DNA of 35,597 bases from Methylophaga sp. (GTDB lineage: Bacteria; Pseudomonadota; Gammaproteobacteria; Nitrosococcales; Methylophagaceae): positions 106,127-141,723 of the forward strand of contig NVUI01000001.1 in NCBI GenBank assembly GCA_002733105.1, given 5' to 3'. Every line of letters starts with the position of its first letter. Positions within the stretch are counted from its first letter, which is position 1. Positions 26,623-28,631 of this stretch are shown piece after piece. Below the pieces are notes generated by a model, which worked only from the letters and a program-made list of their open reading frames with translations, searched no databases and was not told the origin of the DNA. Made by a program: the position numbers and the translations under genes.

Positions 26623-27684
26623 TTGATTCAACGTAAAAAACTAGCAGGATTTAACCTCGCCTTTCTTGACATCATGTCATGCGGCCTTGGCGCCATTATT
26701 CTTGTTTTTATGCTGGTGAAGCATAATGTAAATGATTCATCGGTTGAACTCGATAACCTGAAAAATGATATTCAAAGTCTTGAACAAAGAAAAAAAACCG
26801 CTCTTCAAGCATTAAAAAATATAGATGCTCAACTTATTAAAAACATCGAACAAGAAGCTAATGCCAACAACCAACTTGCACAAAGGCAAGCTATTTTAGC
26901 TAAAAAAAGCGCCGATATTGAAATAGCGGCAAAGGAAATAGAAACACTAAAAGCAGAAATTAAAGACATTAAAGTTATAAAGAAGGAAGATTTAGTAGCA
27001 ACCGAGCAGGTCAATGAACAGAATTACCTATTAGGGCTTAAAGTTGAAGGGCCAAAAATTGCTTTATTGGTAGACAGCAGTGCATCAATGACCAATGAAA
27101 AATTAATCGATATTATTAAAACAAAAAATAGTTCTAATGCAGAAAAACAACAAGCAAAAAAATGGATCCGAACAAAGAAGGTTGTTGGGTGGTTATTGGC
27201 TCGTTTACCAAAAAATAGTGATGTTGTCGTTATCACATTTAGTGAAAAGGCAAAAATACTAGGTAAGCAAGGCTGGATGAAAGCCAGATCCACTGAAAAT
27301 ATAGCCAAGATACAAGCTGATTTAAATGCCCTGATCCCTGAGGGAGCGACCAACCTGCAACGTGGGCTTCAGGCTGTCAATAAATTTGCACCATCAAATT
27401 TATACATTATCACTGATGGACTGCCCACTAAGGGAGATTCACAGTATAAAAGCCTGAACCCATTTGCCAGTTGCAGTTCTTTATTAGGTAACTCAAATAC
27501 TATCTCAGGTGACTGTAGAGTTAAGTTATTTCAACAGACGATCAAAGAGAGCGCACGCCCTGGTATCCAAATAGACGTTGTATTATTACCACTTGAAGGT
27601 GACCCCGATGCAGTGAATCAATACTGGTATTGGACCGCAGCAACAGGGGGATTAGTGCTTAGTCCCGCAAATAATTGGCCATGA
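26623..27684 (+). CDS. Single-pass protein with MotB/ExbD-like helix, coiled-coil stalk and periplasmic vWA domain (1)
   Basis: This 353-residue protein starts at TTG, with AGG about nine bases before it. After a short basic leader comes FLDIMSCGLGAIILVFML (residues 14-31). Asp16 at the head of the helix followed by x-M-S matches the MotB pattern ADFMT and the ExbD aspartate. Residues 38-130 are a charged heptad-like coiled coil (VELDNLKNDIQSLEQRKKTA and onward). Residues 143-350 are a von Willebrand A domain with a complete metal site: DSSAS (151-155), Thr243 in GATNL, Asp265 in ITDG. Two cysteines (CSSLLG, DCRV) could pair. It should be the moving partner of the channel subunit, presenting an adhesion-type domain in the periplasm. 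A role in binding an envelope target is inferred. Confidence 0.82.
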   Translation: MIQRKKLAGFNLAFLDIMSCGLGAIILVFMLVKHNVNDSSVELDNLKNDIQSLEQRKKTALQALKNIDAQLIKNIEQEANANNQLAQRQAILAKKSADIEIAAKEIETLKAEIKDIKVIKKEDLVATEQVNEQNYLLGLKVEGPKIALLVDSSASMTNEKLIDIIKTKNSSNAEKQQAKKWIRTKKVVGWLLARLPKNSDVVVITFSEKAKILGKQGWMKARSTENIAKIQADLNALIPEGATNLQRGLQAVNKFAPSNLYIITDGLPTKGDSQYKSLNPFASCSSLLGNSNTISGDCRVKLFQQTIKESARPGIQIDVVLLPLEGDPDAVNQYWYWTAATGGLVLSPANNWP

Positions 27685-28631
27685 AATTACGTAAAAGAGA
27701 ATTCGACATTTTTAATCTGTCTTTTTTGGATGTTATTTCCTGTGGCTTTGGTGCTGTCGTCATGCTAGTTTTGATTTCAAAAACAAATGACGATACCTCT
27801 GTATCAGGAAGAGAACAGATTGGGGCTTTACTAAAAACCGTTATTACTCTTGAAAACACGATTTCTGAGGCCCAACAAACTATCGAAATTCGATTATCAA
27901 AATCCACCCAATCATCAAACAAAAGACAACAAATAGAAACTGCTTCTGTTCAACTTGGAAACAAAATACAGCAACAAAAAGAAAAACAAGCATCACTCAC
28001 TGCTGATGTACAAGGTCTCGCATTGGTTCAGTCAACCTTAAAACAGGCTTCCATTTCAACACCTAAAACAACCAATACAGTTCGTGATGCTGAAGTAGGC
28101 GGCATTCCTGTTGATAGTGATTATGTTATTTTTATTGTTGATACATCCGGCAGTATGAAACAAATATGGAACCGTGTATCTACTGAAATTATCAACGTGT
28201 TGAATATTCATCCTAAAGTGAAAGGCTTTCAAATATTGAATGACATGGGGATATCACTCATACCAAGCTACGATGGCCAGTGGATACCAGATACACAGGG
28301 AAGAAGAACGAATGTAATCAATATATTTGATAAATGGGCTGCCGTATCAAACAGTAGCCCTGTCGAAGGTCTGCAAGTAGCATTGCAAAAATATGCAAGG
28401 CCTAATATTACAACGTCCATTTATGTATTTGGTGATGACTATACAGGCTCATCTTATGACCCTGTTATTGATACGATCACTAAACAGAATTTATTAGCAA
28501 GTTCAGGAAAAAAACTAGCTAAAATTCACGGTGTTGGTTTTATCTCCGCTGGGACAACAAATAGGTTTGGTATCTTAATGCGTGAACTGACCAAACGAAA
28601 TGGTGGGGCATTTATTGCTTTACCTCTTTGA
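27681..28631 (+). CDS. Single-pass protein with MotB/ExbD-like helix and periplasmic vWA domain (2)
   Basis: The start codon overlaps the previous stop (ATGA), so the two vWA proteins are translationally coupled, which suggests a heteromeric pair. This one has 316 residues. FLDVISCGFGAVVMLVLI (15-32) carries Asp17 in the same place as Asp16 of its neighbour. A Gln-rich helical stalk spans about 44-120. The vWA domain (about 147-316) has DTSGS (154-158), a Ser pair in NSSPVEGL where a Thr is usual, and GDD (251-253), so metal binding is likely but slightly altered. It is the last gene of the operon. The paralogy with its neighbour suggests one rotor or stator partner of each kind, as in asymmetric two-copy ExbD/MotB dimers, but this is inference. 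Confidence 0.82.
   Translation: MKLRKREFDIFNLSFLDVISCGFGAVVMLVLISKTNDDTSVSGREQIGALLKTVITLENTISEAQQTIEIRLSKSTQSSNKRQQIETASVQLGNKIQQQKEKQASLTADVQGLALVQSTLKQASISTPKTTNTVRDAEVGGIPVDSDYVIFIVDTSGSMKQIWNRVSTEIINVLNIHPKVKGFQILNDMGISLIPSYDGQWIPDTQGRRTNVINIFDKWAAVSNSSPVEGLQVALQKYARPNITTSIYVFGDDYTGSSYDPVIDTITKQNLLASSGKKLAKIHGVGFISAGTTNRFGILMRELTKRNGGAFIALPL

Follow-up and report, generated by a model that had tools for sequence, protein, structure and literature searches.

A candidate ion-driven envelope motor with paired vWA proteins in an eight-gene module of Methylophaga

Two neighbouring genes of a Methylophaga sp. encode membrane-tethered vWA proteins that are candidate partners of a TolQ/ExbB-like channel protein. 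Our overall reading, to which we give a probability of about 0.7, is that five copies of the channel protein would surround an axle made of one vWA1 and one vWA2 helix, as part of a proton-driven force machine of the cell envelope. The genes lie in a stretch of 35,597 nucleotides, referred to here as the window (GCA_002733105.1, contig NVUI01000001.1, positions 106,127-141,723, forward strand). A sequence-only reading of this DNA had proposed the vWA pair as ion-driven partners of the channel, and the proposal is supported by an invariant helix Asp, by both channel threonines, by the lack of ExbD or MotB nearby and by the joint occurrence of the two paralogues. That reading covered the vWA pair and the channel; the larger module was beyond its scope. 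We know of no experiment on these vWA and channel proteins.

The vWA pair and its channel

The first gene, vWA1 (26623..27684, + strand), encodes 353 aa from a TTG start, while the second, vWA2 (27675..28631, + strand), starts either at TTG 27675 (318 aa) or at ATG 27681 (316 aa). Both products consist of an N-terminal transmembrane (TM) helix, a coiled coil and a vWA domain. As had been seen earlier, an Asp stands at the head of the sole membrane helix in each: Asp16 in vWA1 (codon GAC, 26668-26670) and, in vWA2, the residue encoded by GAT at 27729-27731, which is Asp19 when counted from the TTG and Asp17 from the ATG. There is one hydrophobic stretch per protein (residues 14-32 of vWA1 and 16-34 of vWA2), flanked by positive charge before and negative charge after, which fits an N-in/C-out orientation. 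At seven other loci (L040, L044, L046, L051, L052, L054 and L055) the vWA1 frame has no ATG, GTG or TTG ahead of the helix and apparently begins at a CTG overlapping a TGA.

Domain assignment can be made by profile search for vWA1, which matches the Pfam family VWA_2 at 8.3e-10. The window's vWA2 has no significant vWA match in Pfam; among 48 vWA2 homologues, 43 give a VWA_2 match at E<=1, the best being 1.1e-4, and a vWA fold is predicted for its head by an AlphaFold2 model (mean pLDDT 80; mostly 84-96 in the vWA part, taken in blocks of ten, and low in TM helix 17-38) that Foldseek matches to solved vWA domains (E 8.5e-7 to about 1e-5 in the first ten rows, prob 1.00). The MIDAS pattern, D-x-S-x-S with a later Asp, is invariant in both families alike. 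It starts from D151 in vWA1 (27073-27087), with D151, S153, S155, T243 and D265 invariant in 49 aligned members, and from D156 in vWA2 (28140-28154), with D156, S158, S160 and D254 invariant in 48. By our own reading, vWA2 appears to have a Ser at the expected position of the MIDAS Thr.

The helix Asp is conserved throughout. In the best 80 of 332 relatives, a regular expression that itself demands Asp, with its misses inspected singly, places the residue in 76 of the 76 vWA1 pieces that include an N-terminus and in 80 of 80 vWA2 proteins. The misses comprised four further vWA1 pieces without the N-terminal region (contig ends or an N run) and one vWA2 (L082), which has a long upstream frame where the motif is present by a separate motif reading. 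This locus sample took one genome twice in two cases (L032 with L038, and L033 with L037), and L220 seems to come from the same genome as L047. The Asp column is also invariant in alignments of 49 vWA1 and 48 vWA2 sequences, and 14 further genomes retain the residue in 13/13 vWA1 and 14/14 vWA2 proteins. The sequence-only reading had staked its case on conservation of this Asp, which is what both samples contain. It had also offered the S-C-G block as a family signature, and this proved not to be strict: Cys is replaced by Ser in 7/13 vWA1 and 8/14 vWA2 proteins of the further genomes, with the Asp unchanged. Since the neighbouring Cys and Gly vary where the Asp stays, the Asp, and not the S-C-G block, is the fixed element.

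The channel protein, a TolQ/ExbB/MotA-type subunit (25866..26612, + strand; PF01618 at 4.3e-13), can be placed by profile comparison as a remote TolQ/ExbB relative. A profile of 50 homologues matched 40 TolQ/ExbB-type frames of same-class loci with Probab 96 and E 3e-9, and against PDB sequences it gave a weak MotA match alone (E 0.97). Thr174 (codon 26385-26387) and Thr207 (codon 26484-26486), previously assigned by eye to the ExbB threonine positions, do align Thr on Thr with the TolQ/ExbB profile, the former at the G-L-F-G-T-V motif, the latter in the last helix. Both are invariant in 50/50 aligned channel homologues, and their counterparts in TolQ and ExbB are the two threonines of the ion path. 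Eight PF01618 matches are found in the window's genome. The 7 others adjoin an ExbD (PF02472) or MotB_plug (PF13677) match, and the contig with the window's channel locus has no match to PF02472 or PF13677. This orphan channel beside two TM-tethered vWA proteins is the strongest argument for vWA1 and vWA2 as its partners.

Helix comparisons bear on the same question. Compared with each other, the vWA1 and vWA2 helix windows are clearly related (Probab 99.7). An alignment of both with MotB and ExbD had been proposed by eye, and Asp does fall on Asp in every best alignment with ExbD or MotB (TolR was pooled in the ExbD helix set and not split off). This part of the claim holds, but the Probab values are 0.3 to 6 and the scores do not rise clear of column-permuted controls, of which 25 (vWA1-ExbD), 115 (vWA1-MotB), 49 (vWA2-ExbD) and 8 (vWA2-MotB) out of 150 reach the observed score. 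ExbD and MotB, which are known relatives, reach merely Probab 22 in the same test, which therefore has little power; at the level of helix profiles it neither proves nor excludes homology with ExbD or MotB. The periplasmic part of vWA1 and vWA2 consists of a coiled coil and a vWA domain with no ExbD periplasmic domain. Neither protein matches PF02472 (ExbD/TolR) at E<=1, and Pfam searches with the two found no MotB plug (PF13677) and no OmpA-like domain. A search for ZorA2 gave weak matches in 6/229 genomes; with the Zorya models, ZorA scored 16.2 bits (E 0.001), and a ZorB match was absent among the matches listed. The case for motor partners thus comes from gene context, the orphan channel and Asp invariance and not from helix sequence similarity.

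A mixed axle and its alternatives

In the mechanism we propose, the channel protein (25866-26612) would form a TolQ/ExbB-like pentamer, and the N-terminal helices of one vWA1 and one vWA2 would form a two-helix axle inside it. Each axle Asp would be protonated from the periplasm, and its proton would then travel past the Thr174 and Thr207 rings. The rotation or rocking could be carried along a parallel coiled coil, about 90 residues long, to the two vWA heads in the periplasm, which may grip and pull the module partners: the PEGA/FGE-fold and TPR inner-membrane proteins and the lipoprotein. A small protein of the module could possibly be gripped too, its F-P-x-D-I tail capping a vWA metal site. 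The output would be that of a candidate envelope-spanning force machine.

Pairing of the two proteins is supported first by their occurrence. In the best 80 of 332 relatives, vWA2 is found in 80/80 loci and vWA1 in 79/80, the locus without vWA1 being one that begins at vWA2, and the two form clean clades with support 1.0 in a single tree. The heterodimer suggested by the sequence-only reading therefore stands as far as the co-occurrence of two non-identical paralogues goes, but not on coupled lengths. The Asp-to-MIDAS spacing (median 143 in vWA1, 138 in vWA2) does correlate between the partners (rho 0.76, 75 loci); after correction for relatedness the correlation falls to r 0.34 (p 0.16, 71 loci), and a smaller run of 33 loci gave a PIC r of 0.46 and a rank correlation of 0.28 (p 0.12). 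With significance gone, linker-length coupling was dropped as proof of a heterodimer.

Two homodimeric motors, in which the channel takes a dimer of either vWA1 or vWA2 and no mixed axle exists, are possible but unlikely. The known ExbD and MotB partners are homodimers, and the loss of significance in the length test leans the same way; opposed to this, both vWA genes accompany one channel gene in nearly every locus of the best 80 of 332 relatives, and the spacing from Asp to vWA domain is similar in the two. A mixed vWA1 and vWA2 axle would be the simpler reading. A lateral position of the vWA proteins on the channel, like that of TonB or TolA, with a structural Asp and another protein as the true axle, is improbable. 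PMC12204202 does describe a first family of vWA transducers that bind laterally, but it states that its second family lacks the motif for such binding. The invariance of the Asp at the helix head argues against side binding as well, as does the lack of any ExbD, TolR or MotB match on the window's contig. That these are ordinary anchored vWA adhesins or chaperones near an unrelated channel gene is very improbable, for although vWA domains commonly mediate binding, the intramembrane Asp is invariant and the order PEGA/FGE - small protein - channel - vWA1 - vWA2 is conserved across loci.

The eight-gene module and its small protein

Comparison of loci places the vWA pair in a conserved eight-gene module, which in the window forms a same-strand gene run from 20403 to 28631. 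At its head is an acidic secreted low-complexity protein (20403..21008, + strand; start inferred, the listed ORF running from 20259) with a conserved C-terminal block, DIPxADNDxV...LWNEYRKYKG, and a homologue in 7/9 fetched loci. Next comes a lipoprotein (20995..22239, + strand; start inferred) with lipobox Cys27, a PelC/CsgG/FlgT/TolB-N-like domain, long helices and a glycine-rich stretch. In its model (mean pLDDT 77), the domain spanning roughly residues 55-202 resembles FlgT (Z 10.7; rmsd 3.1 over 128 residues), PelC (Z 10.2; 2.4 over 110), CsgG (Z 9.2; 3.2 over 112) and the TolB N-domain (Z 8.3; 3.4 over 109), with a best Foldseek E of 1.4e-3. Several proteins of this type form outer-membrane rings. 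The lipoprotein is probably located in the outer membrane, and the modelled similarity points to a shared fold, which of itself shows no function.

A TPR protein with an N-terminal TM segment (22246..23706, + strand) is followed by a PEGA/FGE protein (23690..25699, + strand) with a single TM segment, a PEGA match at 2.2e-28 and a C-terminal FGE-sulfatase fold at 9.6e-33. An enzymatic FGE role requires paired C-terminal cysteines. The FGE part of this protein has none in its sequence, so its role is likely structural rather than enzymatic. Many bacterial FGE-domain proteins without catalytic residues, some of them with PEGA, are described in the part of PMC5915273 considered here.

In the best 80 of 332 relatives, the acidic secreted protein is weakly conserved and found in 32/80 loci, the lipoprotein in 62/80, the TPR protein in 65/80, the PEGA/FGE protein in 69/80 and the channel in 72/80, many of the gaps being contig ends (their cause was examined for the channel only). 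Seven of the 8 loci without a channel in this same sample (best 80 of 332) are truncated by a contig end or situated too close to one. The true exception is L107, which has only an extra gene with vWA1 and vWA2, and no channel gene within 5.2 kb upstream. The order PEGA/FGE - small protein - channel - vWA1 - vWA2 is kept in loci labelled Gammaproteobacteria, Alphaproteobacteria and others. The extra gene lies between channel and vWA1 in 33 loci (for example L068, 5596-6924) and is absent from the window; its profile matches Hsp70 chains weakly (best E 0.001), and an FHA match is seen in 2/21 members. Two Rickettsiales-labelled loci (L061, 4059-12421, and L113, 2874-11229) have the module divided into halves that face each other, one with PEGA/FGE, channel and the vWA pair and the other with the other three genes, which suggests that it is made up of two sub-operons.

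The module is accessory and patchy, being found (E<=1e-20) in 16/398 genomes of a phylum-wide sample, with vWA1 in 9/59 relatives (the window's own genome included). Among its carriers is a culturable relative, Methylophaga aminisulfidivorans (L038). Searches of vWA2 against plasmids and of vWA1 against phages gave no match. Just upstream of the module are a hybrid histidine kinase and an HD-GYP response regulator (16486-20231, + strand). Neither these two nor a 108-aa downstream ORF has a homologue in the 9 fetched loci, which puts all three outside the module. Farther away, at 5107-14348 on the - strand, are a P-type ATPase and an RND efflux pump with adaptor and outer-membrane channel, a cluster read from its translations as heavy-metal resistance.

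A small ORF (25702..25854, + strand), below the length cut-off of the ORF listing, separates the PEGA/FGE gene from that of the channel. It encodes a 50-aa signal-peptide or anchor protein that ends SLNSPVSFPIDI-COOH. It has a Shine-Dalgarno-like GGAGG just upstream and a hydrophobic N-terminus. An ORF ending [F/L/M]-P-x-D-[I/F] is found at the same place in 78/81 channel-bearing loci (72 from the best 80 of 332 relatives and 9 others, made up of the window plus eight genome loci; two genomes enter the count twice). Among the three misses, one contig begins inside the channel gene and two begin inside the tail, which is still visible; the tail is present in every locus with a readable region. 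Pro and Asp are unchanged in all tails found, and because the regular expression itself fixed both, the informative results are the 78/81 and what the three misses show. Codon choice in the tail varies, with all four codons used for Pro, both for Asp and three for Ile, so it is the protein and not the DNA that is conserved. The small protein is present in 13/14 further genomes, the 14th contig ending ahead of the region, with one Y-P-V-D-I and one F-P-L-D-I variant. A DNA pattern for the tail (TGA stop disallowed) occurs once in 7/9 module-bearing genomes, at the module site, and a reversed control pattern never. As text, the five-letter tail turns up in 4 papers, none of which, judged by title, deals with the subject.

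The metal of a MIDAS is usually completed by an acidic ligand residue, as is established for integrins, and neither vWA domain has lost its main MIDAS residues; the tail Asp or the free carboxylate is therefore a natural candidate for a vWA ligand. Alternatively, the tail may be bound by the TPR protein encoded nearby, through a carboxylate clamp of its TPR part. Taking the ligand idea further, the vWA metal sites might catch and release the C-terminal Asp of the micropeptide, with each turn of the heterodimeric axle pulling the tail and, thereby or via the TPR and PEGA/FGE scaffold, an outer-membrane lipoprotein ring. We regard this version as unlikely; if it is true, bacteria would have an integrin-like grip on a ligand that is driven by a motor.

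Known systems and a published prediction

Parallels can be drawn with several envelope motors. The Myxococcus AglRQS system likewise has a channel with two non-identical ExbD-like partners, but is not known to have vWA heads. GldLM and GldK of type IX secretion combine an ion-driven motor with an FGE-fold protein, but the axle protein differs, the window's FGE part scores 79 bits against GldK, far under the cut-off of 350, and the T9SS families gave no match besides FGE-fold ones to the 8 ORFs scanned. With TolQR-TolA-TolB-Pal the module shares a TolQ-type channel with both threonines and a lipoprotein domain like those of TolB-N, PelC and CsgG. It differs in that the axle heads are vWA domains with no ExbD/TolR domain, and the lipoprotein model, unlike TolB, has no beta-propeller in its secondary structure.

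The closest counterpart is a prediction. Section 8 of PMC12204202 (Mol Biol Evol 2025) deals with a second vWA family, whose TM-tethered members mostly come as heterologous pairs tightly linked to a tolQ homologue without tolR or exbD, and predicts with AF3 that these "TPH-vWA" pairs are the axle of a TolQ-like pentamer, with a conserved Asp in the transpore helix and a threonine ring around it. The helix placement adopted here is thus that of a published model, and with the architecture the same, the core idea is already in print. According to the same section, a deletion phenotype has not been reported for the first vWA family. By its sequence the window's pair has the TPH-vWA features: an adjacent TolQ-like gene, no tolR, exbD or motB near, a heterologous TM-tethered pair and the helix Asp, to which the two channel threonines can be added. 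The assignment rests on the features described in that paper, which used Idiomarina proteins. For the second family, that section and its figure legend make no mention of a PEGA/FGE protein, a lipoprotein, a small F-P-x-D-I protein, a TPR gene or a MIDAS, and the terms FGE, PEGA, sulfatase, MIDAS and 'small protein' each occur 0 times in the text of PMC12204202. A literature search on motor, vWA, PEGA and FGE gave no other paper on the module, judged by titles and abstract openings. Relative to PMC12204202, as far as it was considered, the F-P-x-D-I micropeptide and a parts list of eight genes are what is new; the pair and motor idea was known.

These results support, by a different and larger comparison, the ion-motor class predicted in that section, in which vWA replaces the ExbD/TolR head. 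With a parts list in hand, and with one tiny, highly conserved partner that has a specific tail, the cargo and mechanism of such motors are open to simple genetics.
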